Of a stretch of 64,000 bases of DNA, positions 831-52,522 are shown piece after piece. The notes beneath the pieces are model-generated. The model did not search any database, was not told where the DNA came from, and saw nothing but the letters and a program-made list of their open reading frames with translations. Numbering within the stretch: position 1 is the first letter of the stretch; each line of letters opens with the position of its first letter. Both the position numbers and the translations under genes were made by a program. Origin of the DNA: Thraustochytrium sp. TN22. Its lineage: Eukaryota > Sar > Bigyra > Thraustochytrida > Thraustochytriidae. The DNA lies in NCBI GenBank assembly GCA_013306675.1, contig JABLUY010000009.1:248001-312000 (forward strand). The letters run 5' to 3'.

Positions 831-3719
831 ATGCTCGGGTGGAGCGGCGTGAGGCTGCGCGCGGCGCTGGCGAACGACGACGAGGCGTGGCGCGGGTCGT
901 GGCTGGGGGCCTCGTCGCGCGGCGGCGATGCGGCGCCGCGCGGACGGCCGGCGCTGGCCTATTTGGTCGACGCGCGGCGCATGCTCGACCCGTCGCGCGC
1001 GGCGGCCGGGGACAGGGAAGCGCCGACGTGGTGCTGCGGCTACGACAGGGCGGCGTGGTCGCCGTACCTGTGCGTGGAGGACGTGAGCGAGGAACCGATC
1101 AGCTTAGAGCTGGTGCCGGAGCTGTGCTACGACGTGGACGACCTGGAGCGATGCAAGCCGGAGACCGTCGTGGTGCGGCTCATGGAGGGCGTGCTCGGCA
1201 CGGCCACGTGCTTGCTGTGCCTGCCGTTCCTCGTCATCCGGCCCGTGTGCCAGGTCGACTTCTTCGACGATGAGGTGGACGACTTCGAGGTGCCGTGCGT
1301 GATCAGGTCGTGCGGTCAGACGGTCGTGTGCACAAGCTGCCCGGCACAGTGCACAGCGTGCATGGGCGCCCTCATAGGCGCCTGCGCGCTGGCGCCCCTG
1401 GCGTGTCTGACGCCGCTGGGGCTGGGCTTGATTCACAGCGCGAGGGGCTGCGCACGGTGCACATGCATGCGCTGCTTCCGTGTGCGGCAGCAGCTCAACG
1501 GCGAGGCGTCTCAGGTCCACCGCAAGCTGGCAAACCTACCTCCGCACTCCAAGGCGCGCGCCGTGCTGCGGCGCGCCATGCTGCGATGGGACGCGGAGAA
1601 CGAGGCCGTCAAGGTCAAGCAGCCGCGCGGCGGGCACATCAAGATGCTCCTGGAGCCGGGCTTGCCGCGCCTGCGCGTGCAGTCAGACCTCGTGCTGCTA
1701 GTCCCACAGCCGCCTCGGCCGTCGAGGGCCAAGCCCGACGCCAAGCGCGAGGAGGCGGACCCGGCGCTGGAAGGCGGCTTCATGGCCGAGCGGCATCTGG
1801 CCATCGCCCCCCTCGTCATGCCGGAGCGCGAGGAGGCCCGCGCCCGCCTCCGCGTGGGCAACGACGTGCGGGTGATGGGCAACGCGGCCATCGCCGAGGT
1901 CAAGGTGCTCTCTTTCGGCGCGCGCATCAGTTTCGAGGGCGACCTGCTGCTCAGCCTGAGCAACACGGACCCGTACGGACTGCCGAGCGACATGGAGGTG
2001 GGCGGCAAGCTGCAGGTATACCCAAACTCGGCGCTGCGGGAGTTGCCGGCAGACATGGACACGGTCGGCGGGCTCGTGCTGCGCGGCTGCGAGCTGCTCG
2101 ACTCGCTGCCGCCGCGCCTGCGCGTGGTGAACGGCGACGTGGAGCTCAAGGACTGCCCGCGGCTGCGCACGTTGCCGGAGGGCCTCACCGTGCGCGGTGA
2201 CTTGGTTGTGCGCAACTGCGCGGCGCTTCGGGCGCTGCCAGAAGGCCTCGAGGTAGACGGCAAGCTCATCGTCTCGGACTGCGCCGCGCTGACCAGCGTG
2301 CCGGCCTCGCTCCGGTGCTGGGGCACTGAGCTCAATCTGTCTGGGTGCACGGGGCTGACCGGCTTGCCCACGGAACCCTTCGAGCAGCCGCGCGCCTCGC
2401 CGCTCATGGTCAATATTAGCGGCACGGGCATCACGGGGGCCACCTTGGACCGGCTCCGGGAGGTGAACTGGGACAGCGTGCACGTCTTCGTGGGCGCCGG
2501 CGGGTCTGCGCCAGCCGGCAGGCACCAGGTGGTGGAGCTCAGCGATCTCTACAGCGTGGCCAAGGAGTTCAACGTGCAAGCCATGGACCTGGAAAAATAT
2601 GTGGACAAGGCCTACGTCTTCGGCGTGCTCCGCTTCCTGTCGATGCTGCTAAGCAGCAAGGAGTTCCGCGACGAGGACCTGCGCGCGGGCCTGCGCGATC
2701 GCGTCAAGGACGTTCTGCAGACGATCGTGGACGACGACGTGGCGCGCGAGGAGGTCATCATTCGCATGTTGGACGCCACGGACGCCTGCTCGGACAAGCC
2801 GATTTGGGCTCTTGGTCAAATGGAGCTCATCGCCTCAATCGCGCATGCGCGCGGCGACCGCGTCAAGCTGCGCAAGCTCGGGCGCAGCGTGATGCGCCTG
2901 GACATCGTGCACGACCACGTGGAGCAGTTCATTCATGCGCAGACCGGCCACGTCGACGACGTCTGCGTGTTTTTGGCCTTTGAGATTGCGCTGCGCGAGC
3001 CGCTCGATCTACCTGTCTCCTCCAAGGCCATGCTCTTTCCGAATCTCGTCCCCATCCCAGCGGACCTCATCGAAGACGCCAAGAAGCACGCGCTGGGCGT
3101 CAGCGAGAGCGCCTTTGAGGCCTGGCTCACCGAGTGGCCCGAGTGGCAGCGCCAAAACCGCTTCGACGCACTCGTCGACTACACGGAGCTGCCGCGCGCC
3201 GCCAAGTCGCTGGCGAGCTTCGGCCCGGTTCACCATTTCGACCTCGTGGGCGACCTGATCCGCGACCCTGTCCTCGTGCTGCCGGACATGGCCAACGTCT
3301 GGAGCTACAACGACTTCTCCGTGCACTGGATCCGCACCGGCGCTGACTTCAGCAATGTCCGGCTCCCGGTTGAGGAACTTGCGGACCGCGTGCACCGCCT
3401 GCAGGACTCCAAGCCCATGACCTTCGAGACGCCGCGCGGCGCAGCGCTCTCGCGCCGGCGCCTCTCGTCGCAGAGTGTGCACTCGACCGTCTCGGGCCGC
3501 CGCGCCACGCGCTTGAGCTCCATCGCTTCCACGCCTGGCCTCGACGGCGGGTCTTTCGCGTCCGGCTTCGCCAAGGCTGTGCAGCAGGCCCGGCTCTGGG
3601 CGCAGGCGCAGCCAGCCGCGACCGCTCCAGGCTCCGAGGACCTCCTCGCCGCGCCGGTGCCGGAGGAAGCATTCTCCAGGCATGACAGCGAGTCCGAGGA
3701 CGTCGAGGGTGACAGGTGA
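831..3719 (+). CDS. LRR-NEL-(U-box-like) putative E3 ubiquitin ligase, paralog 1
   Basis: The 962 aa product is a predicted membrane-anchored ubiquitin ligase. Residues about 113-141 and 177-203 are Cys-rich and hydrophobic (likely membrane segments). Residues about 370-514 are short LRRs of the form LPxxLxVxGdLxLxxCxxL. Residues about 587-779 match the bacterial NEL domain: catalytic-type motif ACSDKP with Cys653, then LGRSVMRLDIVHDHV, VDDVCVFLAFEIALRE and FEAWLTEWPEWQ, in the same order as IpaH9.8/SspH. Residues about 804-860 (RDPVLVLPD...WSY...DFSN) resemble a divergent U-box. The ATG at 831 is chosen because it gives the same length as the three paralogs and drops an Arg/Ala low-complexity leader. 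NEL enzymes are known from bacterial effectors, where the Cys forms a ubiquitin thioester; activity here is inferred. It is convergent with paralog 2, 121 bp apart. Confidence 0.8.
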   Translation: MLGWSGVRLRAALANDDEAWRGSWLGASSRGGDAAPRGRPALAYLVDARRMLDPSRAAAGDREAPTWCCGYDRAAWSPYLCVEDVSEEPISLELVPELCYDVDDLERCKPETVVVRLMEGVLGTATCLLCLPFLVIRPVCQVDFFDDEVDDFEVPCVIRSCGQTVVCTSCPAQCTACMGALIGACALAPLACLTPLGLGLIHSARGCARCTCMRCFRVRQQLNGEASQVHRKLANLPPHSKARAVLRRAMLRWDAENEAVKVKQPRGGHIKMLLEPGLPRLRVQSDLVLLVPQPPRPSRAKPDAKREEADPALEGGFMAERHLAIAPLVMPEREEARARLRVGNDVRVMGNAAIAEVKVLSFGARISFEGDLLLSLSNTDPYGLPSDMEVGGKLQVYPNSALRELPADMDTVGGLVLRGCELLDSLPPRLRVVNGDVELKDCPRLRTLPEGLTVRGDLVVRNCAALRALPEGLEVDGKLIVSDCAALTSVPASLRCWGTELNLSGCTGLTGLPTEPFEQPRASPLMVNISGTGITGATLDRLREVNWDSVHVFVGAGGSAPAGRHQVVELSDLYSVAKEFNVQAMDLEKYVDKAYVFGVLRFLSMLLSSKEFRDEDLRAGLRDRVKDVLQTIVDDDVAREEVIIRMLDATDACSDKPIWALGQMELIASIAHARGDRVKLRKLGRSVMRLDIVHDHVEQFIHAQTGHVDDVCVFLAFEIALREPLDLPVSSKAMLFPNLVPIPADLIEDAKKHALGVSESAFEAWLTEWPEWQRQNRFDALVDYTELPRAAKSLASFGPVHHFDLVGDLIRDPVLVLPDMANVWSYNDFSVHWIRTGADFSNVRLPVEELADRVHRLQDSKPMTFETPRGAALSRRRLSSQSVHSTVSGRRATRLSSIASTPGLDGGSFASGFAKAVQQARLWAQAQPAATAPGSEDLLAAPVPEEAFSRHDSESEDVEGDR

Positions 3720-3840
3720 GGGGATCCGTGTGCAGTGCAGTGCGAGACAGAGAGAAAGACGGAGAGAAAGTGGAAACGTGAGAGGAGAGAGTAGTAATAA
3801 GCATGTGTTCGTTGTTGTATCTGTTATGCTCAGGCGGGGG

Positions 3841-6777
3841 TCAGCGACGAAAGGCGCCCACTTGCGCTGGCGCCGCAACGCCGTACTTGGGCTCCACGCC
3901 ATTGTCGAAGAGGGTGGTCGGCGCACGGCCCAGCCGGCGGCTCAGCTGACGACTCAGACGCCGCACAGGCTGCGTCAGAGCCTCGCCTCGCGCCGTGCGG
4001 ACGGGAATGGCCCTCGCGCGCGGCTCTACGCTCGCCGTACGCGGAGGACCAGCTTCTACAGAAGTGCGCTCGAGCCGTCTCAAGTTGGCGCGAAAGTCAT
4101 CCACCGACATGGGCGAGTTCGCAAAGTCGAGACCGGTCGAGATCCAGCGCTCCCTCAGCTCTGCGTAGGACCACACCGTGCTACGCGAGGGGAGGAGGAG
4201 CACCGGGTCCGGGATCGGGTCGCCAAGGAGGGTCACGAGGTCGTCCTCGTCGAGACCGAGCGCCTCCAGAGGCTCGTCATACGCCGGCAGGTCCTGGTAC
4301 ACCGGGGCGGCCTCCAGGCGGTCCTGTCGCTGCCACTCAGGCCAGCCGGCGAGCCAGGCCTCGAACGCCTCGTCGGTAATGGCCAGCGCCTCCTCCTTGG
4401 CCGCGTTGAGTTCGGCCTCGGATACCTGCGCGACGCGGCCGAAGATCATGGCATGGGCCGAGACCGGGAGGTCGAGCGCCAGACGGAGTGCGAGTTCAAA
4501 GCGGAGGTAGACCGCCACGTCATCGACGCGACTGCGGCCTCGCGACGCGATGTGCTTCTCCACGTGCTCGTGGACCACGCCGAGGCGCATGACGCCGCGG
4601 CCGAGCTCGCGAAGCTTGGCACGGTCGCCGCGCGCCCGGGCCGTCCGGACGACGACCTCCATCTGGTTCAGCGCGAAGATTGGCTTGTCGTTGCACTGGT
4701 CGAGGCTGTCGAGCATGCGTAGCACACACTCGTCGCGCACCGAAGCGTCCGTGGAGATGACCTTGGCCAGGTCGCGCATGCGATGTAGCAGGCCGTCGCG
4801 CAGCGTCCGGTCCTGCATCTCGGCGCTAAAGAGAAGCATGCTAAAGAAGCGAATGACGCCCCTGACGTGCGCCGGGTCGACGACCGGCGTGATGTCCGCG
4901 ATGATGCTGGAGAGCTCGGAAGCGACGAACTCTGGGATACCCTGCTCGAAAACGCCGCCGCCGCCGCCGCCGTCAAAGTCGAACAGCAAACTGGACCGAG
5001 AGATGAGGCAGTTGACTGCCGCTTCTTGCAGGTTGGACACGTCATCCTCCGAAATGTTGGTGCCGGTCAAGTCAACGAGGAGTGGGCGGAGGCGCGGTTG
5101 TGTGAACGGCTCATGAGGCAGGGCCTCGAGCTCCCTGCAGTTCATGAAGGAGGCCTGGTGGCCGCGCACGCGAAGCGAGGCTGGCACAGTGCGCAGCGAA
5201 GTGCACGATATTGCATCCAGGTTGCCTCGGACCGAAAGGGCCTCCGGCAGCGCGCGCAGCGAGGTACAGCCGGACAAAACCAGGTCACCGTGGACCTTGA
5301 GCCCGCTCGGCAGCGTCTCGAGGCTGGTGCAGTCGGCGAGGACGAGGTGCCCCCTGACATGGGTGAGGGAGTCCGGAAGCGAACGCAGAGAGGAACACGC
5401 GCTCAAGTTCATGTGGCGCAGGTCCTCCCAGCGCGGAAGATGCGTGAGTGCATCGCAGTTGGCCAGGACGGCGATGCCGCCGTCCAGGCGCAGGTCTTCT
5501 GGCAGAGCGCGGGGACTGGGTTCCACGTCAATCAGGATCAGGCTCCCGACGCACATGCCGGAGCCCCAGCTCGTCGGCGCCTGCACACTCCTCAAGATGA
5601 GCGCCCGTTTCACGTGCAGATCGTCGGGCAGTTTGATTGAGGGCACATCGGACTCATCCATGTCGAACCTGGCGATGGCCATGGAGCCCTCGACCACAAG
5701 GCCGCGGCACAGGGCGTCAGGGACGCTGGTGGCTGTGGGAACCACGAGGAGGTCGCTGCCTACGAGCCGCAGTGGCGGGAGGTCCTCCGAAAGGTGCGTC
5801 AGCAGCGTGCGGAGGCTGCGCACCTTGACCTCGAGCGTGGCCTCAGACGACGAGTCGTCCCACTGGGCCCACACAAGCTGCGACTTGCGCAGCTCGGCGC
5901 GAAAGCCATCGCCTTGAACCCGTGCCAGTGCAGCACGCGTTGCTGTGCGCCGGAGTGAAGCATCGCACGGGGACGGACACTTCGGGCAGCTGCACACGTG
6001 CCGTCGTGTCCACGCCCCGCAGAGCACGGCGTGCTCCGCGCTTGACCTGGCCGCGGATTTGGACCAGGCCGCGTCGGCGTGGAAGCGCTCGCGAGAGCCC
6101 CGCACGCAATCGCGCAAGACACAGCACGACTCCCACCCGGCACGGCTCAGCTTGACGCCCGTGAGGCAGAGCGGCGCGGCAATGACATACGGCAGGGCCG
6201 CAGCGGCAGCTGCGAGCGCGAAGGGCACTTCAGCCAGGAGGCACACGCAGCCTTGCTTGCGAGGCATCTCCGAACACGGGGGAATGTAGGTGCCATTGTC
6301 GTCGTCACATCGGAGAATCACCGACCCGCACATTGCTGGAAGTGCAGGGAAGCAAGCGGTCAGCACGGCCAGCACTGAGCATGTCATGAGGAAGCCTCGC
6401 TCCACCTTGTCACCTCCGTACCCGTACGAAAGGTGCGCGAGGCAAGGACACACGCAAATGGCCACAGGTCCATACTTGTCCTCGACCTCCGCTTTGCAGC
6501 AGTACGGCCTAATCGCCTCCGGGAGCGGGTCCTTGGGCTCCGAGACCGTGTGGGTGAGCCAGTCAGCCAAACTCGGCGCCCTGCCAGAGTTCACGAGAGC
6601 GTGCAGGATGCCGAAGCCGGCCAGCTCGAGCATCAAGCCCTGTGGCGTTACGCTGTCCATCTCAGACTGGTCCATCGTCGAAGCGGTGTCCACGCCGGCC
6701 TCAGAGTCCACCTCGTTCATGTCGGCCACGGACGCAGTTCCCCCCCTGGAGCCATCGGAGGCGAACTCGCCGTCCAT
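3841..6777 (-). CDS. LRR-NEL-(U-box-like) putative E3 ubiquitin ligase, paralog 2
   Basis: The 978 aa product has an acidic N-terminus, Cys-rich hydrophobic segments at about 128-155 and 178-208, and an LRR block at about 410-560 with repeats such as LPSGLKVHGDLVLSGCTSL. The NEL-type domain (about 630-820) has motif QCNDKPIFALNQME with candidate catalytic Cys695, followed by LGRGVMRLGVVHEHV and VDDVAVYLRFELALR. A U-box-like segment lies at about 845-901 (PDPVLLLPSRSTVWSY...DFAN). The start is a true ATG; a second in-frame Met at residue 20 aligns with the first Met of paralog 3 and is a credible alternative start. The C-terminal two-thirds is nearly identical to paralog 3, so the two arose by recent duplication. 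Substrates are unknown. Confidence 0.82.
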   Translation of the reverse strand: MDGEFASDGSRGGTASVADMNEVDSEAGVDTASTMDQSEMDSVTPQGLMLELAGFGILHALVNSGRAPSLADWLTHTVSEPKDPLPEAIRPYCCKAEVEDKYGPVAICVCPCLAHLSYGYGGDKVERGFLMTCSVLAVLTACFPALPAMCGSVILRCDDDNGTYIPPCSEMPRKQGCVCLLAEVPFALAAAAAALPYVIAAPLCLTGVKLSRAGWESCCVLRDCVRGSRERFHADAAWSKSAARSSAEHAVLCGAWTRRHVCSCPKCPSPCDASLRRTATRAALARVQGDGFRAELRKSQLVWAQWDDSSSEATLEVKVRSLRTLLTHLSEDLPPLRLVGSDLLVVPTATSVPDALCRGLVVEGSMAIARFDMDESDVPSIKLPDDLHVKRALILRSVQAPTSWGSGMCVGSLILIDVEPSPRALPEDLRLDGGIAVLANCDALTHLPRWEDLRHMNLSACSSLRSLPDSLTHVRGHLVLADCTSLETLPSGLKVHGDLVLSGCTSLRALPEALSVRGNLDAISCTSLRTVPASLRVRGHQASFMNCRELEALPHEPFTQPRLRPLLVDLTGTNISEDDVSNLQEAAVNCLISRSSLLFDFDGGGGGGVFEQGIPEFVASELSSIIADITPVVDPAHVRGVIRFFSMLLFSAEMQDRTLRDGLLHRMRDLAKVISTDASVRDECVLRMLDSLDQCNDKPIFALNQMEVVVRTARARGDRAKLRELGRGVMRLGVVHEHVEKHIASRGRSRVDDVAVYLRFELALRLALDLPVSAHAMIFGRVAQVSEAELNAAKEEALAITDEAFEAWLAGWPEWQRQDRLEAAPVYQDLPAYDEPLEALGLDEDDLVTLLGDPIPDPVLLLPSRSTVWSYAELRERWISTGLDFANSPMSVDDFRANLRRLERTSVEAGPPRTASVEPRARAIPVRTARGEALTQPVRRLSRQLSRRLGRAPTTLFDNGVEPKYGVAAPAQVGAFRR

Positions 6778-7347
6778 GGCGCGAGTCGCGGGCTGCTGAT
6801 GCGCGGGGCGCTATACGCCCAGGCCGCCCCACGCCGCGCCCGCCCTCCTCCCCCACGCCGCCTCGCGCCGCCGGCCGTTCGCTCGCGCGCGCGCGCGCGC
6901 GCGCGCTGGAAAACGAAAGGCTTTGCGTGTTTGCGCGCGTGTTTGCTTGGCACCATGGTAATGGGAAGGGAAACTTGTAGCGAGACACGCGCGCGCACGT
7001 GCGCGCAGCCGAGCACGTGCAACACGTGCAGCAACGTGCAACACAGCGCGAGGGGGGGCGAGGGGCCGCGCCCCGAGAGGCTCTACGATCGCTCGCTTCC
7101 TCACTCAACGTTCCGTAAGATCATTTGTCAGATGTTAATAACCCAATCCCATCGCCCTAGACGGAGTTTAATCAGGATAGCCATATTATCCCTAGTAAAT
7201 CGGCTCTCCTGCTTGCGCTCGACTGACCTGTTGCTATCATGATTCTAATCATTTTTGGAACTTTCAACTACTGGGTTTGTATGGAAGCGTAAAGTGTTGG
7301 TCACTTCCGACTGGCCTGTGCGGATGCTGAGGCCAACTTGGGCTGCA
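6778..7347. other. Non-coding spacer between LRR-NEL paralog 2 and the transposon remnant
   Basis: The first half is GC-rich, with an alternating (GC)n run near 6886-6906, and would be the promoter side of the paralog 2 gene. From about 7105 to 7320 the base composition abruptly becomes AT-richer. That change probably marks the non-coding end of the mobile element that follows. No terminal inverted repeat or target duplication could be confirmed by eye, and no gene was recognised. Confidence 0.4.
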
Positions 7348-9023
7348 TCAAGGGCACGATGGACTCGTGCTGAGGCTGCTGCGAGAGGATCTTGAACTAT
7401 GGCTTGATGGGGTGTCGGTGTAGCTGGCTTGGGCTACGTGGTCGTTCCTGCTCTGCGCTGTAGGGGTACCGGACGAGGCACTGGCGCTGCTCGAATCGAC
7501 ATGATCGAGGCAAATGGGCGAAGGTGTTCCGTTGACGTTTGTCTTGCGCTTCTTGAAGCCTTCGTGAGGCTCGACGCGCACGCGCGTGTGCCACTTGGAA
7601 AAGCAGGTTGTGCGTTCATTCTTTCTCATGAACACGTGCAGAGGCACACCGCAGATGGTGCAACGACGGTGCGTTTGCTTGCCGCAGATGACGCAGAGCC
7701 GCTTGGCGGGAATCCTCTTGTTGTTGGCGTTGAAGGATGCCTTTCCCGCTGCCTCTGAGTCATGTTGCAGTGCGGCATCGAGGCGGATGTCGCGGGCTTG
7801 GCCGTGGTTGAAGAACTTCTGCAACTCGGGGGTTCGCTTGCGCTTACCGGCGGTCACGAGGTCCCTCGCCGCTTCCCTGGTGAGCCCAGTGGGCTTGGGC
7901 ATGCTTGGCTGCATGTTGAACTCCACCTGCGCCGTATCGAGCTGCCTGCTCCTGTAGACGTGACGGACCATGTCGACAGTGAGGCGGAACGAGACAGTGC
8001 TGAGCGCTTCAGAGCGGTTCACCTTGTCGCGGAGGGCCTTTAGCCCGTCGCTGTCTTCGAGGTTGCTCTTCCTCGCAGCCTGTAAGTAGCGGTAGACCAC
8101 GATGGCGTTGACAACGAGCTGCTTGTACGTGCGCAACGCGATGTTCTGGTCGCAGCTCAGATTCATGCACTGCGTGTTGGTGATCTGCTCCACGTACTGT
8201 GTGCTTCCGTCGACGCCGCCCTTTGCGACGTTGTATAGCTCCTGCGGTAAGCACTTGATGACATGCACGGGCCGCATGGGCCCCTTCAGAGCGACAAGCT
8301 TGCGCATGGCGCGCCACAGCCGGAAGTGCGAGCTCAGCACCGCCCCCTCCTCCTCGCCGAAGATGGCAGGTGGCTTGGGCGGCGCACCCGCTGTCGATGC
8401 TCTGGTGCGCCCATGTCGTGAGCTTGTCCGCCCACGGTTTCAGAGCGCGCTCCATGGCGAGCCGGGCGTCCGGAGGCACTTCAACGAGGCAGGCGTACAA
8501 ACACGAACTCGTGCTGGCAGCAACGTAGAGCACGTGATCGATTTGGAGGACCACAGCTTGGTGCAAGACTTGCGCGCGGTGCTCGGCAGGTATGGCCTTC
8601 CACCAAGTCTCGTCCCCCACGTGTTCATCTGGGTGCTCACGATACGTGCGTCTACCGCGCCTCCAGGCGCGACGCGCGTCTTGATCTCGACGCTGCATAG
8701 TACTGACGATGCGTCGCACTCCGAGCCTGGAAGCCGGACGCGAGCGACTCCATCCGGCGAGACTGCGAGCCCCGGAACGGTCTTGTGCTGAATGAGGCCG
8801 ACCTCGAACATGCACTCGCACCACGCGTCGGTTCGACGACCAACGCAAGTATGTCTTCGAAGTCTTGCTGCGCAGCGGCCTCAGCACGAGCATCCTCGTC
8901 GCCAAGCTCCTCTCCTTCTTCGTCTTCGTCCCCTGTGTCCCGCTTGTCCAGGGGCACGAACTCGCTGTCGCTGTCGCTGTCGCTGTCGTCCTCCACGCGG
9001 TGGTTAGGCCTCGCCGATGCCAT
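7348..9023 (-). mobile_element. Decayed DNA transposon remnant with piggyBac-like transposase tail and YqaJ-like nuclease segment
   Basis: Three coding segments lie in order on the minus strand. An acidic N-terminal piece begins near 9023 (DDSDSDSDSEFVPLD). A middle piece has motif GLAVSPDGV followed by VEIKTR, as in YqaJ/lambda-exonuclease-type PD-(D/E)XK nucleases. The last piece (7348-8340) has YNVAKGGVDGSTQYVEQI and RTYKQLVVNAIVVYRYL, like the end of a piggyBac-type DDE domain, then a zinc finger CVICGK...CTICGVPLH...CF..WH typical of piggyBac-derived proteins. The reading frame changes more than once, so the copy is either broken or interrupted by introns I could not place. Flanking DNA is AT-richer than its neighbours. 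Family assignment is tentative because nuclease and transposase features appear together. Confidence 0.5.
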
Positions 9024-9532: not shown

Positions 9533-12400
9533 TCAACGACGAAAGGCGCCCACTTGCGCTGGCGCTGCAACGACGTACTTGGGCTCCACGCCATTGTCGA
9601 AGAGAGTGGTCGGCGCACGACCAAGCCGGCGGCTCAGCTGACGACTCAGACGCCGCACAGGCTGCGCCAGAGCCTCGCCTCGCGCCGTGCGAACCGGAAT
9701 GGCCCCCGCGCGCGGCTCTACGCTCGCCGTACGCGGAGGACCAGCTTCTACAGAAGTGCGCTCGAGCCGTCTCAAGTTGGCGCGAAAGTCATCCACCGAC
9801 ATGGGCGAGTTCGCAAAGTCGAGGCCGGTCGAGATCCAGCGCTCCTTCAGCTCTGCGTAGGACCACACCGTGCTACGCGAGGGGAGGAGGAGCACCGGGT
9901 CCGGGATCGGGTCGCCAAGGAGGGTCACGAGGTCGTCCTCGTCGAGACCGAGCGCCTCCAGAGGCTCGTCATACGCCGGCAGGTCCTGGTACTCCGGGGC
10001 GGCCTCCAGGCGGTCCTGTCGCTGCCACTCGGGCCAGCCGGCGAGCCAGGCCTCGAACGCCTCGTCGGTAATGGCCAGCGCCTCCTCCTTGGCCGCGTTG
10101 AGCTCGGCCTCGGATACCTGCGCGACGCCGCCGAAGATCATGGCGTGGGCCGAGACCGGGAGGTCGAGCGCCAGACGGAGTGCGAGCTCGAAGCGGAGGT
10201 AGACCGCCACGTCGTCGACGCGACGCCGGCCTCGTGACGCGATGTGCTTCTCCACGTGCTCATGGACCACGCCGAGGCGCATGACGCCGCGGCCGAGCTC
10301 GCGAAGCTTGGCACGGTCGCCGCGCGCCCGGGCCGTCCGGACGACGACCTCCATCTGGTTCAGCGCGAAGATTGGCTTGTCGTTGCACCGGTCGAGGCTG
10401 TCGAGCATGCGAAGGACGCACTCGTCGCGCACCGAAGCATCCGTGGAGATGACCTTGGCCAGGTCGCGCATGCGATGTAGCAGGCCGTCGCGCAGCGTCC
10501 GGTCCTGCATCTCGGCGCTAAAGAGAAGCATGCTGAAGAAGCGAATGACGCCCCTGACGTGCGCCGGGTCGACGACCGGCGTGATGTCCGCGATGATGCT
10601 GGAGAGCTCGGAAGCGACGAACTCTGGGATGTCTTGCTCGAAAGTGCCGCCGTCGTGGCCGTCGCCGCCAAAGTCGAAATCCAGCCCCCCACCAATCATC
10701 AAGCAGGCGACCGCGACCTCTCGCAAGTGGGCCATGTCATCCTCCGAAATGTTGGATCCCGTCAAGGGAACCGTGAGCGGGCGGAGGCGCGGTTGCGTGA
10801 ACGGCTCGTCTGGCAAGGCCTCGAGCTCCCTGCAATACATGAAGGAGGCCAGTCGGCCGCGCACGCGAAGCGATGCAGGCACAGTGCGCAGCGCAGTGCA
10901 GTAGTTTGCATCCAGGTTGCCTCGGACCGAAAGGGCCTCCGGCAGCGCGCGCAGCGAGGTGCAGCCGGACAAGACCAGGTCACCGTGGACCTTGAGCCCG
11001 CTCGGCAGCGTCTCGAGGCTTGTGCAGTCGGTGAGGATGAGGTGCCCCCGGACACGGGTGAGGGAGTCCGGAAGCGAACGCAGCGAGGAGCATCCGTTCA
11101 ATTCCATGTGACGCAGGTCCTCCCAGCGTGGCAGATGCGTGAGGGCATCGCAGTTAGGCAGCATGACCATGCCGCCGTCCAGGCGCAGATCCTCGGGCAG
11201 AGCGCGAGGGCCCGGGTCCACGCCTTGGAAGATGAGACTCCCAACGCGAATGCCGGAGCCCCAGCGCGTCGGCGCACGCGCACCCCTGAAAATGAGCGCC
11301 TTTTTCACGTGCAGGTTATCGGGCAGCTCCACATCTGGCTCGTCCATGTCGAAATTGGCGATGGCCATGGAGCCCTCGACCACAAGCCCACGGCACAGGG
11401 CGTCGGGGACGCTGGTGGCTGTGGGAACCACGAGGAGGTCGCCGCCGACGAGACGCAGTGGTGGAAGACGTTCTGGCAATTGCGTAAGCAGCGTGCGGAG
11501 GCCTCGCACCTTGACCTCGAGCGTGGCCTCGGATGACGAGTCATCCCACTGCGCCCAAACAAGCTGTGACTTGCGCAGCTCGGCGCGAAAGCCATCGCCC
11601 GGGACTCGCGCCAGCGCAGCACGTGTCGCCGTGCGCCGGCGTGTAGCCTCGCACGGGGACGGACACGCCGGGAAGCAGCACACGTGCCGTCGTGTCCACG
11701 CCGCGCAGAGCACGGCGTGCTCCGCGCTCGACCTGGCCGCGCTTTTAGACCAGGCCACGTCGGCGTGAAAGCGCTCGCGAGAGCCCCACACGCAATCGCG
11801 CAAGACACAGCACGACTCGCCCCCGGCACGGCTCAGCTTGACGCCCATGAGGCATAACGGCGCGGCAATGGCATACGGCAGGGCCACAGCGGCAGCTGCG
11901 AGCGCGAAGGGCGCTTCAGCGAGGAGGCACACGCAGCCTTGCTTGCGGGGCTTTTGCGAACACGGGAGAATGTAGGTGTCCTTGTGGTCGTCACATCGTA
12001 GTATCACCGACCCGCACAGCACTGGAAGTATAGGAAAGCATGTGCTCAAAATCATGAGGCTCGAGCAGGTCAGCACGCAGCACCGCTCCGGCCCGTCGCC
12101 CTCGTGCATCTCCGACAAATTACCCAGGCAGGGGCACACACAAATGGCTGCATGGCCAAAAAACGTATCCAAGTCTTGTCTGCAGCAGTACGGCCTGATC
12201 GCTTCCGGCAGCGGGTCCTTGGGTTCCGACACAGCGTAAGCTAGCCACTGCACGAAGTCCGGCGACTTGCCAAGGTGCGTGAGCGCGAAAGTAATACCAT
12301 ATCCGGCCATCTCGACCATCAGGTACTTGGACGAGCGTCTGTCCATCTCCGGCATCATCGACGCGGTGTCCACGTCGGCCTCCAAGTCGGCCTCGTCCAT
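9533..12400 (-). CDS. LRR-NEL-(U-box-like) putative E3 ubiquitin ligase, paralog 3
   Basis: The 955 aa product is the close duplicate of paralog 2. The longer open frame begins at a TTG; the first ATG after an in-frame upstream TAG is at 12400 and gives MDEADLEADVDTAS, matching the second Met of paralog 2. It has the same layout: Cys-rich hydrophobic segments, LRRs at about 388-537, an NEL-type domain at about 606-797 with motif RCNDKPIFALNQME (Cys672), and a U-box-like segment at about 822-878 (PDPVLLLPSRSTVWSY). The N-terminal third differs more from paralog 2 than the rest. The family role (ubiquitin transfer through the Cys) is inferred from bacterial NEL enzymes. Confidence 0.82.
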   Translation of the reverse strand: MDEADLEADVDTASMMPEMDRRSSKYLMVEMAGYGITFALTHLGKSPDFVQWLAYAVSEPKDPLPEAIRPYCCRQDLDTFFGHAAICVCPCLGNLSEMHEGDGPERCCVLTCSSLMILSTCFPILPVLCGSVILRCDDHKDTYILPCSQKPRKQGCVCLLAEAPFALAAAAVALPYAIAAPLCLMGVKLSRAGGESCCVLRDCVWGSRERFHADVAWSKSAARSSAEHAVLCAAWTRRHVCCFPACPSPCEATRRRTATRAALARVPGDGFRAELRKSQLVWAQWDDSSSEATLEVKVRGLRTLLTQLPERLPPLRLVGGDLLVVPTATSVPDALCRGLVVEGSMAIANFDMDEPDVELPDNLHVKKALIFRGARAPTRWGSGIRVGSLIFQGVDPGPRALPEDLRLDGGMVMLPNCDALTHLPRWEDLRHMELNGCSSLRSLPDSLTRVRGHLILTDCTSLETLPSGLKVHGDLVLSGCTSLRALPEALSVRGNLDANYCTALRTVPASLRVRGRLASFMYCRELEALPDEPFTQPRLRPLTVPLTGSNISEDDMAHLREVAVACLMIGGGLDFDFGGDGHDGGTFEQDIPEFVASELSSIIADITPVVDPAHVRGVIRFFSMLLFSAEMQDRTLRDGLLHRMRDLAKVISTDASVRDECVLRMLDSLDRCNDKPIFALNQMEVVVRTARARGDRAKLRELGRGVMRLGVVHEHVEKHIASRGRRRVDDVAVYLRFELALRLALDLPVSAHAMIFGGVAQVSEAELNAAKEEALAITDEAFEAWLAGWPEWQRQDRLEAAPEYQDLPAYDEPLEALGLDEDDLVTLLGDPIPDPVLLLPSRSTVWSYAELKERWISTGLDFANSPMSVDDFRANLRRLERTSVEAGPPRTASVEPRAGAIPVRTARGEALAQPVRRLSRQLSRRLGRAPTTLFDNGVEPKYVVAAPAQVGAFRR

Positions 12401-13021
12401 CTTGGCCAAGGACGCGATCTCCGACGCGTGAGGCTCGGCGAGCTAGCCGAGGCGTCAGCCAGCCTTCGCAGCGCCCGGCCCTCGCGCCGCCGGCCGCCCG
12501 CGCCGCCCTTGCGCCCGGCGCGCGCAGGCAAACCTGATGTGTGTCTACTTGCTTCGTGGTCATCACGGTGAGAGGCGAGCGAGCGAGCGAGCGACTCGGA
12601 ACGAGCGAGCGAGTGGTACGTAGGAGATGACTATTGACGTTGCACATCCGTCGCGTAAACATTTGCGGGGCACGGCGACGCAGGCGCGGAGATGTGACGC
12701 CGCAGCGGATCACGCAGCATGTATGTATACTATTGGCAAGGAATTGGACGACTGATGTTGCTGACGTCCGCAGAGTCTGTGAGTTTGTCGACGGCGGCTC
12801 AACCATCACCGGTGCCGACGTTCAAGTTGTCGATGCTACGCGCAAGGTAGTTTGCGGCACCGTCACTGCAACGCGACGCCTCCTGCAGGCCGGCGAGGAA
12901 ATGCTTCACCATCGCTTTGCTTTTACGGAGGAACACATCTGATGGAAACCTCTCGTTCGGCCATCAGGGTCCATCAGAGCGCCGCGGCTCAGCGGCGGCA
13001 TCTTTAAAATCACATAAGATC
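12401..13021. other. Intergenic region with GAGC tetranucleotide runs and a doubtful short frame
   Basis: GAGC/GCGA repeats lie near 12573-12615. An open frame on the plus strand ends at 12942 and contains VCEFVDGGSTITGADVQVVD, which reads like real protein rather than low complexity, but the frame starts at TTG and I recognise no family. It may be a small exon or a relic. The rest shows no defined element. Confidence 0.3.
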
Positions 13022-15757
13022 TTATTCGTCGAGGCTGAGAAGAGAAGGCGAGGTAGGGTGATCCGCAGGATTGGTGGGCGGGACGTGAGAGATAATGCGC
13101 TTGTCGTTGACCCACATGGGGCCAATGGTCCAGGGCTGACGGACGGTCTCGCGGGACTCAAAGGCGGCGCGGCTAACGAAGACGTCGCCGCGCTTGAAGT
13201 AAATGCGCGTGACCCGCGAGAAGTCAGAGTGGCGCACGCGGAACATAAAACCGTTGCCGATGGCATAGGCCTGCTTGGCGATGGCGATGGGCTTGTCGAC
13301 GCTCATGAGCGGGTCCATCAAGTCAAAAGGGTACTCCTTGCCGTCGAGCACGTGCTCAAAGACGCCGTCGGAGAGCAGCTTGCGCTTGAGGCGCAAGAAG
13401 ACGATGTTTCCAGAGACTCTAATGGAGAACTCGGACTCCATGACCTCGAGCATGCGGCGGCGCACGGATCCAAAGTTCAGCGAGCTGGCGCGCAGGTTGG
13501 AGATGACGCTGCGGGACTCCTGAATGCCGATGAATGTGCCTTCAATATCGAGCGTGCCGTTCGGGTCAAGGCCGTCGAAGGCGTTGGGAATGTTCGTGTC
13601 ATGCTGCAAATAGCGCTCCAGGTCCTCGAGCGGCATCTGTACGCGGCGGCACGAGTACGGCACGCAGCGCGGCGAGCCGGTCATCAAGGTGCCACAGCTC
13701 TCGTCGCTGGCAATGGGAGAGCCGGGCGCAACGCGCACGCGCTTCTTGTTGGCGTCAGCAGCCGCAGCGGCCGCCTTTTGCTGCTGCAGTTGCTGCAGCT
13801 TGTGCAGGATGTCCGGGTGCAGGCGGTTGGGGCGGCGGCCCAGGCGGTGCGCCTCGTCGCTGCAAGAGTCGACCAGCGTGAGGAAGACACGGCGCATGCG
13901 TGATTCGGCGTCCCCCTGCGGACGCGGCGGGCCGTCCTCGGCCGCATCCAAGGAGTCTGCAGCGCGGCGCTTGTCCCCGGAGGACGAGTCCGGGGACGCG
14001 GAGGCGGCCTCAATGTCGGAGCGCGGCTCGGACTCGGCCAAGGACGCGGCCGCGACGTAGAGTTCTTCGACCTCGCTAAGGGTTGACCCACGCGATCTGA
14101 GAAAATCCGCCAGGTAGTCCTGCATGGCCGCGTTGAAGCGAGCGAAACCCTGGTCGATGCTCATGCCGCGGTCCCGGTTGTAGGCAATCTCGCGACAAAC
14201 TGAGTTGATGTGCTCCGTGAAGTCGTCCTCGGCGAGCACGTGCTGCGCGAGGCTGCGCAGGATGCTTTGCAAGTGGCGGCGCTGCGCCGCGCGCCGCGCG
14301 CTGCCGGTACTCGCGTCGTGCTCATCGTCGCCGTCCTCGTCCTCGTCCTCACCTTCGCTGCACGATGAGCTCGCCGCCGCGGCCGCGGCGGCGGCGGCGG
14401 TGGCGGCCCCAGAAGAGGACGAGGAGCTCGCTTCGCCCTCCTCTTGAGCATCGTCGAAGAGCTTGGAGCGCTGCGGGCCCTGGAGCAGGACAGCCATGTG
14501 GTAGAGGAGGGTGGCGGGCGTGCGTGCCACCGCGGCCTCGCGCTGCGAGCTCCTGCGGCGGCGGCAAAAGATGGCAAAGGACGGCGTCTTGAAGATGCCC
14601 ACGCAGCGCAGCTGCTGGTTCGCCTCGGGGCGGAACACGTAGGCGCAGAAGTTGTGCTGCAGGTGCCGCGTGTACTTGGTAGCGGTCCACATATAGGTCC
14701 AGCCCTGGTGCTCGAGGCTGTTGAACTCAAAGACCAGCTTGAAGGAACCATCCTCCACCGGCACCACGGAGCGTTCCAGGCTCGGGTACCAAGGCGCCAA
14801 TGGGCGCCCGCGCCGCCGTTCCTGTTCCTGAATGACTGATTGCTGCACAATACTGCCGACCTCGATGTCCTTGAAGGTGCCGTCCACCGTGTCGAAACGC
14901 CCGTACGCCACGAACCGGGGCGCCGTTCGAAGCGCAAAATTCGGCTTGAACACCGCGTGCAGAGTGATGGCCTGCCCACAGAACATCCGAGGCTGGTGCC
15001 GCGGCTCGTCGTCAGGCCCAGGCCCCGCCGTGCAGCAAGGGAAACACCGGAGGTTCTTCTGGCCCTGAGTTTTGTTGTTCCTCTGGTACGTCTTCCGGAA
15101 GCGCTCCTCGTCGTACGACCCATACAGCGTGCCGTCGTCTTCCGCCCACGCCTTGTTTCGCGATTGCGCGTGCGTCTTGAAATGCATGGCCGGCGGCGCA
15201 TGCTCCTGCTGCTGGCCGGAATACGGCTGCTGCGACTGCGACTGCAACTGCGACTGCGCCGGCGCATCATGATATACAAAGAGCTGCTCCTCGTGATTGG
15301 GTACCTGGATCACCTGCGCCGGTGACAGCAGCGCGCCAGACGGCGCGTGCTGCTGAGCAGGTTCGCTTGGCGGGTACGGCGCTTGGTCCTCGAAGTACTG
15401 TCTGGGCGGGTTCGACGACGCCATGGAGAAATGCGGCTGCTGCTGTTGATGTTGCTGATGTTGCTGATGCTGCTGATGCTGCTGATGCTGCTGATGCTGC
15501 TGATGCTGATGATGATGATGATGCGTCACACCGGTGGCGTGGTTCGCGGCGTCCAAGTTCGCATCGAGATTGCCGGTGTCCCAGATCTCTGCCAGCGTCA
15601 CATCGCAGGCGTCCAGGCTCAGCAGCTCCAGCACCGTTCTATCCACGGAGCCGGGCGGCGGGGCCGTCGAAGGCACCTCGGCGTGCTGGTCCTTCCACGC
15701 GACATCCTCGCCCTCCCAGGCGGCGAGGCCGTCCTCGTCGTCCCAGAGCACGCTCAT
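13022..15757 (-). CDS. Hypothetical Gln/His-rich protein with two folded blocks, possibly nuclear
   Basis: The 911 aa product starts at ATG (MSVLWDDEDGLAAWEGED). It has an acidic N-terminus, a His5 run followed by repeated HQQ (coded at about 15440-15525), and a Gln/Ser-rich stretch. A first structured block (about 240-380) contains FCGQAITLHAVFKPNF and FEFNSLEHQGWTYMW. Long Ser/Glu/Asp/Ala low complexity follows, then a second block near the C-terminus with IPNAFDGLDPNGTLDIEGTF and IRVSGNIVFLRLKRKLLSD. This design (disordered Gln/acidic segments around compact domains) is common in transcription regulators, but I could not assign either block to a family, so no function is claimed. It sits inside the LRR-NEL cluster and is divergent from paralog 4. 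Confidence 0.75.
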   Translation of the reverse strand: MSVLWDDEDGLAAWEGEDVAWKDQHAEVPSTAPPPGSVDRTVLELLSLDACDVTLAEIWDTGNLDANLDAANHATGVTHHHHHQHQQHQQHQQHQQHQQHQQHQQQQPHFSMASSNPPRQYFEDQAPYPPSEPAQQHAPSGALLSPAQVIQVPNHEEQLFVYHDAPAQSQLQSQSQQPYSGQQQEHAPPAMHFKTHAQSRNKAWAEDDGTLYGSYDEERFRKTYQRNNKTQGQKNLRCFPCCTAGPGPDDEPRHQPRMFCGQAITLHAVFKPNFALRTAPRFVAYGRFDTVDGTFKDIEVGSIVQQSVIQEQERRRGRPLAPWYPSLERSVVPVEDGSFKLVFEFNSLEHQGWTYMWTATKYTRHLQHNFCAYVFRPEANQQLRCVGIFKTPSFAIFCRRRRSSQREAAVARTPATLLYHMAVLLQGPQRSKLFDDAQEEGEASSSSSSGAATAAAAAAAAASSSCSEGEDEDEDGDDEHDASTGSARRAAQRRHLQSILRSLAQHVLAEDDFTEHINSVCREIAYNRDRGMSIDQGFARFNAAMQDYLADFLRSRGSTLSEVEELYVAAASLAESEPRSDIEAASASPDSSSGDKRRAADSLDAAEDGPPRPQGDAESRMRRVFLTLVDSCSDEAHRLGRRPNRLHPDILHKLQQLQQQKAAAAAADANKKRVRVAPGSPIASDESCGTLMTGSPRCVPYSCRRVQMPLEDLERYLQHDTNIPNAFDGLDPNGTLDIEGTFIGIQESRSVISNLRASSLNFGSVRRRMLEVMESEFSIRVSGNIVFLRLKRKLLSDGVFEHVLDGKEYPFDLMDPLMSVDKPIAIAKQAYAIGNGFMFRVRHSDFSRVTRIYFKRGDVFVSRAAFESRETVRQPWTIGPMWVNDKRIISHVPPTNPADHPTSPSLLSLDE
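15440..15525 (-). repeat. Trinucleotide-type repeat coding His/Gln in the hypothetical gene
   Basis: A run of GCTGAT and GTTGAT units, ending in repeated GAT, codes for HHHHH and then repeated HQQ on the minus strand. Repeats of this kind commonly vary in length between alleles. Confidence 0.8.
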
Positions 15758-17028
15758 GGCTTCCCGGCCTGATTCTGCGCTCGACCAGGCGTACGTACAG
15801 GCCCGCGCGGGCGAGCAGCCAGCCTCCCTCCGTCGCGCCTCGCGTCGAGGAAGGTCGCCTGCCAGAGGCGGAGACGGAGCTCAAGACACGAAGCAAAAGA
15901 AAGCGCTGAGCGACTCCGAGGCCGGGCGGCGAGTGCGGATGGCGCGCCTGTCCCGCCGATCCTTGCCGCGCGGCCAGGCCGCCGCCGCCGGGGGGCCGCG
16001 CCGCCGCCGCGCGCGGCGGGAGGGCACGGGGGCCGCGCCGCGCCGCGCCGCGCCGCGCCGCGTCGAGCCGCGCCGCGCCGCGCAGCAGCCGCGCGGGCAC
16101 GACAGATGCGCGTTTGCCCTCGAGGGACGCAGGCACGCACATGTGATCAGACGGCGAGCAGCGGTCCAAATGCCGGCGGGGCGGCGGGTAACTAGGCGCG
16201 GCGGCGCGCGCAAGGGCAGAGTTCGACTTGCGGCGGCGCGGCAAAGGGCACGACGCGGCCGCGCAAGTCGGGGCGGCGCGGGGCGGCGCGCGCCGAGGCG
16301 AGCGCGGCGGCGGCGCTCAGGGCGCAGTCCGCCAGGTCCGCCAGGCCCGCGACGGCGGCGGCGGGCGGCGCCGCAGCCCGGCAGGGCGGGCAGAGCCGAG
16401 CCGAGCCGCGGGCGGCGGCATGCGCTGGCGGCCGCGGCGGCGCCCGGCGTGCGCGAAGCCGGCGAAGCTGGTCGGAGGAGACGGGACGCGACGAGGAGGC
16501 GAGGCGAAGGCGGCGCGCGCGGCGATCGTCGTGGCGGACGTGATGGACGTCTCGTTCTCGCAGAGGACGCGCGCGTGAGCGGGCGCCGTCAGAGCGATCG
16601 ACATCGTGGTGGAGAGGAATTTGCTGGTCGCCGTCGTGGATGCACGGGCATGCACGGGGAAGGTGGGACGCCGCGGGACAGAGCTCCGAGCCGGGCGCCG
16701 AGCAACGTCGAAGCTGGCGCTGGCGGCACGGCGCGGCGCGGCGCCGCGGGCGAGGACGAGCGGCCGCGCAGGCCCGAGACGCAGGCCGCGGCGAGGCGGG
16801 GCGCCAAGCGCGCCAAGAGCTTGACGCGAGCTCGAATTCGAATTCGAACTTGAGCTGACTCGGACTCGGAGCGACCCCCAGAATAGGGCGGCCGGCCAGG
16901 AGGAATAGACCGCGGCCGCGCGCGCGTGCGGAAACAGGTGCAGGTACTACGCGCAAGCCTTGCCTTGCCAAGCAAAACATAGCTCGCCCGGCCGGGCGGT
17001 CGGCGCGGCGGCGCGGCGCGCGGCGAGG
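15758..17028. other. Long GC-rich divergent promoter region
   Basis: This 1.27 kb stretch separates two divergent genes. It is dominated by GCC/GCG repeats (for example GCCGC runs at about 16035-16080). Many open frames exist on both strands, but all give Arg/Ala/Gly/Pro low complexity and overlap each other antisense, so none is accepted. It presumably holds both promoters; I recognise no motif. Confidence 0.5.
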
Positions 17029-19878
17029 ATGCAGGCGGCGGCGGTGCCGGCGCCGGTGGCGGCGGCCGTGGAGGCGAGCTGGATCCGGCGCGACTCGCGG
17101 CTGGAGCAGGCCGTGGTGCGCGCGCTGCTGCACGCGCGGCAGCTCGCGGACGACGCGGACGCAGACGCGGCGGCGGCCGCGGCGGCGACGGCGGCGGCGG
17201 CGACGCGCGGGACGCTGGGCGGAAAGCTGAGAGCCCTGGCGTGCGTGGTGAAGCAGGGGCGACGCGGCGTGGACAGGCTGGCTGCGCGCGCGCTGCGGCA
17301 AGTGCCAGCGGACTCGCTGCTGGCGCGCAGCCTGGCTGCGACGGAGGTGAGGGTGCAGTGGGACCACGACGCGCAGGCGCTGCGCGTGTCGCTGCCGCCG
17401 TCCGAGGTGCTGGTGGTGGACATCCCGCAGCATTTCCCGCGCATTGTGGTCTTCGGCAATGTGCTCGTCGTGGCGCGCGCCGCGCAGGGGCAGAGCGGGA
17501 GGCTGCCGGACCAGCTCACCGTGCGCGGGAACCTGGTCATCATGAGCGAGCTGGACGCTGACGGGGACTTTCTGGACCCCGTGCGCCTGGACCTGCCGGC
17601 GAGCCTCGCTGTGGGCGGCAGCTTCATGGTGCTCAACGCCGATGTGCGGCGGTGGAGCGCCGACCTGCGCGTGGGCGGGGAGTTTGCTGTGCGCGAGGCC
17701 GCCTCATGCCTCGAGGCGCTGCCGGAGATCACCGAGCTCGGCGGCGCGCTCGACTGCCGCGGCTGCCGCTTGCTGCGTGCGCTGCCGCCCGCGCTCGAGG
17801 TCTCGCACTCCCTGCTGCTCGAGGGCTGCACGTCGCTGCGCAATTTGCCGCACACGCTGGCGCGCGTCAAGGGCGACCTCGTGCTCAAGGACTGCACGCA
17901 GCTCGAGAGCCTGCCAGATTGGATCATCGTGCACGGCAATCTTGACCTGCGTGGCTGCACGGCGCTGAAAGCGCTGCCCAGCCTGCTCACTGTGCATGGC
18001 GATGTCTGGCTGCAGGGCGCTGTCAGGCTGGAGCGCGTGCCGGTCACGCTCGACGTGCGCGGGAGCACGCTCGACCTGCGCGGTTGCCGGGCGCTGCGTC
18101 GACTGCCGCTCGCTCCCTTTGAGAAGTCGCGCACGCGCCACCTGCTCGTCGACGCGCGAGGCACCTCGCTCTCCGCCGAGGAGCGCGACGTGCTCGGCAC
18201 CGTCGAGAGCGCCGGCGTGCGCTTTCGCTTTGACCCGGAAGAACCTGACGGGAGCAGGTCTGCTACCGCCGCCGTGGACTCCGAAGAGCACCTCGATGGG
18301 GATGCAGATGAGGACCTCGAGGAGGACCTGGACGAGGATGCAGAGGAGAGCCTGGACGAGGACCTCGAGGAGGATGACGACGACGACGACGACGACGACT
18401 TCGAGGAGGATCTGGACGAAGACGCAGAGGAGAGCCTGAACCAGGACCTGGACCTGGACCTCGAGGAGGACGTCGAAGGAGAGGATGCAGAGGGGAGCCT
18501 GAACCAGGACCTGGACCTGGACCTGGACCTAGACCCCGAGGACGGCCTTGAAAAGGGAGATCCTGATGAGGGCCTGGACGAAGACCTTGACGAAGACCGG
18601 GATGAAGATCAGAACAAGGACCAGGACCAAGACCAAGACCAGGACCATGACGAAGCCAAAGAGGAGGTAGATGCGAGCAACGACGACTGGGAGCACGAGG
18701 AACTGCTGCGCGAGACGGACGCGCGCCGGGCGCGTCCAGCGGCGCGCCGCGGCACGGAGACAAGCGGATTCCGTGCGGCACTTCTCGCAGGCGACCCGGG
18801 CGAGGACGAGGAACACCATGATGCCGAATCCGGCTCCTCCTCAAGTGCCGTGGCAAGCAGTCAGCCAAAACCACGCCGCAAGACGCAAGTGCTGCTGGAG
18901 GTTGCCAACCTTGATGCGGTGGCCTCCGTAGCAGACGCGCTGGCGCTCTTCGACGCCGAGGATATTGACCTCGAGCGTCATCTGGATCCCGCCTACACGC
19001 GCGAGGTGATCGAGTTTCTCAAGCTCTTAGCCTCCAGCCTCGAATGCCGCGTGCCCGCCTTGCGCGTGCTACTCTTTGAGCGCCTACGCGACGTGCTCGA
19101 GGTCGCTGCACAGGACGCCATCGCGCGCGAGGAAATCGTGCTCCGTATGGCCGACGCCGTCGACACCTGCGTCGACAAGCCCATTTGGGCGCTCGGCCAG
19201 ATGCAGCTGATCGCAGCGCTCGCCCACGCACGCGGCGACCGCGCCCAGCTGCGCGAGCTTGGCCGTGGCGTGATGCGCCTCGGCATTGTGCACAAGCATG
19301 CCGCTCGCATTATTGCCGACGCGGACTCTCTCGACGTTGACGACGTGTGTGTCTACCTCAAACTGGAGCTCGAGCTGCGGGACGACCTCGCGCTCCCTGT
19401 CTCGCCGCGCGCCATGGAGTGGGAGCAGTACGTTCAGATCGAACCTGAGGACGTGGAAGGTGCGCGCGCCGAAGCGCTTGCCGCCACAGACGCCGACCTC
19501 GATCGCTGGCTCGCCTCTTGGCCGCCCTGGCAGGAGCTCCTGCGCTCTGAGGCCCTCCCGGTCTACGCATCGCTGCGTCCGCCACCCGCGGACGTCTCCG
19601 TGCCGCCCGACGCTGCCAGCGCCACCACGCTGCTCGGTGAACCGGTCCACGACCCCGTGCTGGTTCTCCCGGACATCGCCAATGTTTGGTCCTACGCGGA
19701 GTTCACCGCACACTGGGTCAGGACCGGCCTGGACTTTGCAAACAACACGCTTGCCGTGCAGGATTTTGCCAACCACGTGCGCCGTCTCGCCAAGGTCTCC
19801 TTGCGCGCCTCCATCTCGCGCAGGCTCTCGGCGCGCCGCCGGAGCGACCTTGGCGATGGTCGTGGTGACAGTGTATGA
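17029..19878 (+). CDS. LRR-NEL-(U-box-like) putative E3 ubiquitin ligase, paralog 4, with long acidic linker
   Basis: The 949 aa product starts at the first ATG (17029); the longer open frame begins at TTG. Unlike its three paralogs it lacks clear N-terminal membrane segments and looks soluble. LRRs occupy about 151-361 (for example LPHTLARVKGDLVLKDCTQL). A very acidic Asp/Glu linker of DLDEDxEE units spans about 418-551. The NEL-type domain (about 645-834) has TCVDKPIWALGQMQ with candidate catalytic Cys714, then LGRGVMRLGIVHKHA, VDDVCVYLKLELELR and LDRWLASWPPWQ. The U-box-like segment (about 868-921) reads HDPVLVLPDIANVWSY...DFAN. It is probably an E3 ligase acting in the cytosol or nucleus; that location is inference. 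Confidence 0.8.
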   Translation: MQAAAVPAPVAAAVEASWIRRDSRLEQAVVRALLHARQLADDADADAAAAAAATAAAATRGTLGGKLRALACVVKQGRRGVDRLAARALRQVPADSLLARSLAATEVRVQWDHDAQALRVSLPPSEVLVVDIPQHFPRIVVFGNVLVVARAAQGQSGRLPDQLTVRGNLVIMSELDADGDFLDPVRLDLPASLAVGGSFMVLNADVRRWSADLRVGGEFAVREAASCLEALPEITELGGALDCRGCRLLRALPPALEVSHSLLLEGCTSLRNLPHTLARVKGDLVLKDCTQLESLPDWIIVHGNLDLRGCTALKALPSLLTVHGDVWLQGAVRLERVPVTLDVRGSTLDLRGCRALRRLPLAPFEKSRTRHLLVDARGTSLSAEERDVLGTVESAGVRFRFDPEEPDGSRSATAAVDSEEHLDGDADEDLEEDLDEDAEESLDEDLEEDDDDDDDDDFEEDLDEDAEESLNQDLDLDLEEDVEGEDAEGSLNQDLDLDLDLDPEDGLEKGDPDEGLDEDLDEDRDEDQNKDQDQDQDQDHDEAKEEVDASNDDWEHEELLRETDARRARPAARRGTETSGFRAALLAGDPGEDEEHHDAESGSSSSAVASSQPKPRRKTQVLLEVANLDAVASVADALALFDAEDIDLERHLDPAYTREVIEFLKLLASSLECRVPALRVLLFERLRDVLEVAAQDAIAREEIVLRMADAVDTCVDKPIWALGQMQLIAALAHARGDRAQLRELGRGVMRLGIVHKHAARIIADADSLDVDDVCVYLKLELELRDDLALPVSPRAMEWEQYVQIEPEDVEGARAEALAATDADLDRWLASWPPWQELLRSEALPVYASLRPPPADVSVPPDAASATTLLGEPVHDPVLVLPDIANVWSYAEFTAHWVRTGLDFANNTLAVQDFANHVRRLAKVSLRASISRRLSARRRSDLGDGRGDSV

Positions 19879-52171: not shown

Positions 52172-52219
52172 ATGTCGGACCCCTCGCCTTGGTGCAGAGA
52201 CGAGCAAGAAGAAGGCGCC

Positions 52220-52474: not shown

Positions 52475-52522
52475 GACTCCAATTCCGAGCAGAGCGACGA
52501 CTCAGATGAAGATGACGAATAC

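Follow-up and report, generated by a model that had tools for sequence, protein, structure and literature searches.

A thraustochytrid-like protist carries about 25 nuclear genes of its own for putative ubiquitin ligases of the NEL type, a class described mainly as bacterial and injected into hosts. We propose, with a probability of roughly 0.6, that these genes form a home-grown family of Cys-dependent E3 ligases, in which a C-terminal U-box-like module would dock E2~Ub, the NEL Cys would catalyse transfer, and a leucine-rich repeat (LRR), ARM or SPRY part would bind the target. Four of the genes lie in the window, the whole stretch of 64,000 nucleotides analysed here, which belongs to a contig of 313,588 bases in a host genome of 37.9 Mb and 453 contigs.

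All four are intact, uninterrupted single frames with one stop each, at the terminus, and the initial annotation was right to call them long and intact and to place them in a genome of eukaryotic type. Gene 1 (831..3719, + strand) encodes a 962-aa LRR-NEL-U-box-like protein with hydrophobic, Cys-rich N-terminal segments (1167..1439, +; hydropathy windows up to 1.94) that may anchor it in a membrane, followed by leucine-rich repeats in LxxLPxxL units of ~21 residues (2028..2375, +, read from the sequence), a NEL catalytic domain (2625..3152, +), in which the codon of the catalytic-type Cys653 (CSDKP), identified by alignment to bacterial NELs, occupies 2787..2789 (+), and a U-box-like module (3240..3404, +). 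Its LRR region has no Pfam LRR match and is matched weakly by the XopL and SspH2 LRR profiles. Gene 2 (3841..6777, - strand, 978 aa) encodes a further LRR-NEL-U-box-like protein (NEL domain 4327..4869, Cys695 codon 4693..4695, module 4069..4230, all -), and gene 3 (9533..12400, - strand, 955 aa from the ATG) is its tandem paralogue (NEL domain 10019..10561, Cys672 codon 10385..10387, module 9761..9922, all -). Gene 4 (17029..19878, + strand, 949 aa from the ATG) has an acidic insert between the LRR and NEL parts (NEL domain 18997..19551, Cys714 codon 19168..19170, module 19627..19788, all +). The NEL domains were located by Pfam and the modules by profile comparison; the four Cys codons were re-read, and their numbering fits the gene starts. 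An N-terminal LRR domain of substrate type is present in all four proteins; hydropathy reveals hydrophobic N-terminal segments in genes 1–3 and none in gene 4. Between genes 2 and 3, a frame on the - strand (7351-8340) ends in a Cys/His-rich stretch (CVICGK...CTICG...CFSKWH) reminiscent of piggyBac-type transposases; the only Pfam match of the frame is a weak one to zf-RING_16 (E 0.29).

Profile searches confirmed the NEL domain that had been called in all four LRR proteins. Pfam NEL (PF14496) matched each of them at E 5e-23 to 5e-28 (4.9e-28, 5.1e-23, 1.7e-23 and 2.2e-24 for genes 1–4), with 98.5, 82, 83.6 and 86.5 bits and a cut-off of 24 bits. The NCBIfam SlrP, IpaH and SspH2 models matched the same region below their cut-off (best E 5e-13), and phmmer searches of the PDB returned SspH1, SlrP and IpaH chains. 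In the phmmer alignments, the Cys of ACSDKP in gene 1 lies in the aligned active site, opposite the CED-motif Cys of SspH1, SlrP and IpaH2.5, and the CxD Asp and the VDE/VDD motif are likewise aligned with these proteins. The Cys, the CxD Asp and the VDD/VDE Asp are invariant in an alignment of three bacterial and four protist rows, the last of them, 60 residues past the Cys, being Asp397 of IpaH9.8 by counting on the IpaH2.5 row.

The same motifs run through the family. CxD, whose importance is described in passages of PMC9320238, is present in 25/25 NEL matches of the genome, and the VDD Asp is invariant in all 21 aligned own members, an alignment made without C158_8175, C335_13683, C335_5938 and C335_9812. 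As a profile, these 21 of the 25 members matched 12 PDB chains, all of them NEL effectors (E 4.7e-27 to 2.7e-23). LxxLPxx motifs occur in 23 of the 25, being absent from the ARM-bearing C348 and from C335_13683, which is cut by a contig end. Separately, the stretch around WxxW in the NEL profile weakly matches an IpaH N-terminal helix (PDB 5kh1, 9g09, 9jwg and 9g08, residues ~31-74, i-Evalue 4.2 to 230), possibly by chance.

Compared by hhalign (52 protist-type rows, 47 after filtering, and 80 bacterial rows), protist and bacterial NELs align with Prob 99.4 over 272 columns, which include the LRR cap before the NEL domain; the alignment stops just past WxxW and leaves bacterial C-terminal columns 296-359 unmatched by the protist profile. 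Passages of PMC12506513 place the E2-Ub-binding thumb of NELs at the C-terminus, as two long antiparallel helices (SspH1 residues 623-697, with C492 as the catalytic residue), and the unmatched columns correspond to it. According to passages of PMC12506513 and PMC9320238, the bacterial enzymes depend on the thumb for holding E2~Ub and on a Cys for accepting ubiquitin. Between the protist tail with its module and the bacterial thumb, hhalign found no match (Prob 0.17); a thumb that was kept but has diverged is unsupported, the alignment ending before it. Judged by profile, the two-helix thumb appears to be absent, with the U-box-like module in its place. Because the thumb is unmatched, the window proteins and the genome matches are assigned to the NEL E3 family through their catalytic domain and not through a complete bacterial architecture.

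In the tails of the genome's own members, P[VI] with an aromatic residue about one helix further on (P[VI]...W) recurs in 25/25, L.G..P[VI] in 24/25 and W..xG.D in 24/25, or 22/25 when the following Asn is included. Aligned with eight U-boxes that this genome encodes, among them PRP19, 50 module cores reached a score of 29.4 (Prob 83.5), against 18.2 for the best of 600 column shuffles (300 on each side) and 8.3 for a reversed U-box. A run with six U-boxes gave 27.2 (Prob 73.7) against 12.6 for the best of 60 shuffles, and a longer, 105-residue piece gave a lower Prob of 66.8. The 50 cores were drawn from 52, excluding C44_48164 and P0028, the one paralogue pair in which the module is degenerate. 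Searched against the PDB, 21 cores matched seven chains at E<=10, of which three were U-boxes (PRP19 1n87 and 2bay, E4B 2kr4), at a weak E of 0.3-0.5, and the other four were unrelated.

Three results lead us to call the module U-box-like, a name based on sequence profiles, and not to file it as a U-box. Pfam U-box (PF04564) matched none of the 21 module cores at E<=10, nor any of 21 longer C-terminal pieces. In leave-one-out comparisons, the module scored 23.2 to 31.2 (Prob 45.5-87.5), below each of the eight true U-boxes, which scored 33.99 to 89.7 (Prob 92-99). Finally, the module gave no signal against ten RINGs (of 12 loci; Prob 0.03), whereas true U-boxes reached 92.6 against the same RINGs; the reading as a RING-like tail was set aside for this lack of signal. 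The usual loop-2 Pro of U-boxes gives way in the module to F, L or other residues, so that E2 binding of the ordinary kind becomes less likely; a conserved hydrophobic residue two before the module Gly occupies what we take to be the position of the CHIP loop-1 Ile.

Given the loss of the thumb and the presence there of a module of the eukaryotic E2-docking type, docking has, on the simplest reading, passed to the U-box-like part. E2~Ub of the protist itself would be recruited by the module and its ubiquitin accepted as a thioester by the NEL Cys, before transfer to whichever protein the LRR, ARM or SPRY part has bound; that part would make the choice of target, and E2 docking and thioester catalysis would be split over two domains in an RBR-like manner. 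The genome encodes polyubiquitin genes (30 ubiquitin-family matches), 28 E2-type and 79 RING matches, and seven canonical U-boxes, none of which is at a NEL locus.

It is possible, though we consider it unlikely, that the NEL domain acts as in bacteria, with E2 bound by the NEL core or by the region before it, and that the module is a targeting or scaffold piece. A module with no Pfam match, no RING similarity and no usual loop-2 Pro would suit such a role, as would its degeneration in one paralogue pair; nevertheless, the module is kept across the family (P[VI]...W in 25/25 and L.G..P[VI] in 24/25 own members), its U-box profile signal exceeds 600/600 shuffles, and the known E2-binding thumb is absent. 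That the family is catalytically dead, a set of pseudo-ligases whose fold acts purely as a scaffold, seems improbable: although the protist proteins read DKP from the CxD Asp onwards where the aligned bacterial chains have DRV or similar, and their activity is putative, the retention of CxD in 25/25 members and of the VDD Asp in 21/21, together with a NEL dN/dS of 0.14-0.39, argues against it.

The genome holds 25 NEL matches over 17 contigs, all above the cut-off and none with an internal stop, with four on the window's contig, three on C158 and four on C335. The window also encodes a PPIP5K-type kinase, DnaJ and EGF proteins and two large ankyrin proteins, and third-position GC in the NEL genes (0.795-0.894) lies within the range of ten neighbours (0.702-0.907). 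Two adjoining frames at 49107-56854 (+) are built almost entirely from ankyrin repeats. An origin by bacterial contamination, or by transfer from bacteria in the very recent past, would be in line with reviews and papers that describe the domain type as bacterial, but is extremely improbable. Against it stand the PPIP5K-type kinase, EGF, DnaJ and ankyrin genes on the same contig, the similar third-position GC (0.79-0.91 in the four NEL genes and most of the ten neighbours, with one neighbour at 0.70), the spread of 25 copies over 17 contigs, the Hondaea orthologues, the SPRY, SAM and ARM fusions, and the outcome of a scan with two short peptide patterns, which found no close relative among 84,980 species of bacteria and archaea. 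Contamination itself is refuted by these findings.

The part before the NEL domain is a substrate-binding array, mostly LRR, with ARM in one member and SPRY or SAM added in three. For 16 of the 21 own members that lie elsewhere in the genome, Pfam searches of the N-terminal part placed SPRY in C139 (L024) and C20 (L028), SAM in C288 (L030) and ARM in C348 (L027), fusions that were read from long open frames (3511 aa in C288) with provisional starts for some; NB-ARC had no match among the window proteins and the N-terminal parts scanned.

With region borders set by hand, dN/dS was 0.14-0.39 in the NEL domain and 0.31-0.89 in the LRR part, and was lower in NEL in 7/7 paralogue pairs, which are not independent of one another. 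Synonymous divergence changes sharply along some pairs: dS is 0.83 in the LRR part and 0.033 in the NEL domain of C158_8175 and C158_11418, and falls from 0.43 through 0.30 and 0.11 to 0.014 from N-terminus to module in window genes 2 and 3, whereas C335_5938 and C335_9812 show the opposite trend, with 0.025 at the N-terminus and 0.289 in the module. Such jumps point to probable gene conversion or exchange between tandem copies. More weakly, the divergence of the recognition halves beside a catalytic half that is conserved, and the arrangement of copies in tandem, lead us to infer recognition of changing targets, as in a repertoire for intracellular defence or quality control.

At least 27 usable protein relatives were collected: five from Hondaea fermentalgiana, one labelled Durusdinium trenchii, two NCBI entries with no organism shown, three from transcriptome collections and 16 from metagenomes. 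Among the searches behind them, a profile search of proteins with a candidate limit listed at least two hits, so that eukaryotes are covered too thinly to show how far the family extends, and the named relatives among the matches listed are mostly thraustochytrids (Hondaea, Thraustochytrium). The three transcriptome-derived homologues (P0026-P0028), one of them from Thraustochytrium sp. LLF1b, show that relatives are expressed. Extra domains were found in P0013 (SPRY) and in P0007, P0021 and P0022 (ARM). Some records call for caution in themselves: P0007, which bears the Durusdinium trenchii label, sits on an 11 kb contig and may be contamination or a fused gene model; P0020 joins a PRP6-type protein, 53-63% identical to that of this genome in its PRP6 part, to LRR-NEL, with contamination or fused gene models again possible; and in P0002, a Hondaea record called tubulin, a NEL protein runs into a tubulin-like tail, probably through the fusion of two gene models.

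In an unrooted tree of 67 NEL domains, a single branch with 100/100 support separates 52 protist-type rows from 15 bacterial rows. The bacterial rows form a narrow set, 14 rhizobial and Sodalis, taken from 12 of 80 bacterial loci and three plasmid loci. The tree and tail sets exclude P0015 (a fragment) and P0029 (a piece of this genome's own), and the bacterial set excludes L124, whose record name and sequence do not fit; L124 is titled Mycobacterium sp. KBS0706 and carries a NopM-like gene 50% identical to a rhizobial query, so that its title or assembly may be wrong. Own members pair with Hondaea proteins with strong support in three places (C170/P0014, C120/P0010+P0011 and C348/P0022+P0023), and this pairing, together with the fully supported separation from the bacterial rows, indicates that the family is old. 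The same two short peptide patterns picked out 57 stretches in viral contigs and 17 in genome contigs, with no relatives among either.

Since the tree is unrooted and its bacterial set narrow, it carries no information on the direction of transfer; the one-branch split and the lack of a close bacterial relative in the pattern scan fit an old transfer in either direction. Where the initial annotation had suggested a domesticated, expanded family, possibly acquired from bacteria, the expansion stands, with 25 matches, and acquisition from bacteria is one of the two directions that would fit. A doubtful and rather speculative extension would make NEL a eukaryotic E3 class, with U-box-like docking and NEL catalysis, that was kept and diversified in thraustochytrids; bacterial effectors would then descend from captured copies in which the U-box was lost and the helical thumb acquired. 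If true, this would explain an effector family with no known eukaryotic counterpart.

The NEL domain call for the Hondaea proteins is already in databases, under misleading names, and a literature search whose coverage lay outside most subscription journals found no description of NEL genes in thraustochytrids. The U-box-like module that replaces the thumb, the exchange of LRR for ARM, the SPRY and SAM additions and the age of the family go beyond the initial annotation. An old, expanded protist family gives a way into the question of how the effector class originated. Its apparent natural exchange of the part that docks E2 opens the transfer mechanism of NELs, which is little understood, to testing, and the diversity of the family points to a ubiquitin-based recognition repertoire in marine protists used in biotechnology.

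Among known systems, the closest in catalytic domain are IpaH, SspH1/2, SlrP and NopM (PF14496), which share with the protist proteins the LRR, the LRR-NEL linker and a NEL core with the CxD Cys, the VDD/VDE Asp and WxxW. Unlike these type III secreted bacterial NELs, the protist genes are eukaryotic, sitting in a eukaryotic contig and genome, and their products show no match to the two-helix thumb and have a U-box-like module and N-termini with ARM, SPRY, SAM or membrane segments. Passages of PMC7145615 make a comparable claim for other eukaryotes, green algae, in whose NLR genes a domain of NB-LRR proteins is said to resemble the bacterial-type NEL; that domain (ODAL) is of LRR type, and the passages describe no catalytic motif in it.

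The module resembles the U-box E3s (PRP19, UFD2/E4B, CHIP) in its DPV motif and hairpin-helix pattern, with PRP19 and E4B among the seven PDB chains, and differs from them in lying below Pfam detection, in its shorter second half, in the absent loop-2 Pro and in its fusion to a Cys-dependent domain. In RBR ligases, docking of the E2 and catalysis by a Cys fall to separate domains, and the division proposed here would be similar by analogy only, the protist proteins having no RING-like zinc domains and a catalytic domain that is unrelated. TRIM-SPRY ligases and plant-type LRR resistance proteins join a recognition array to a ligase or signalling part. The protist proteins differ from both in that their catalytic domain is NEL and that NB-ARC was not matched in the proteins scanned, and are like them in forming an expanded, divergent family, in which the NCBI names of Hondaea members include 'disease resistance protein'.
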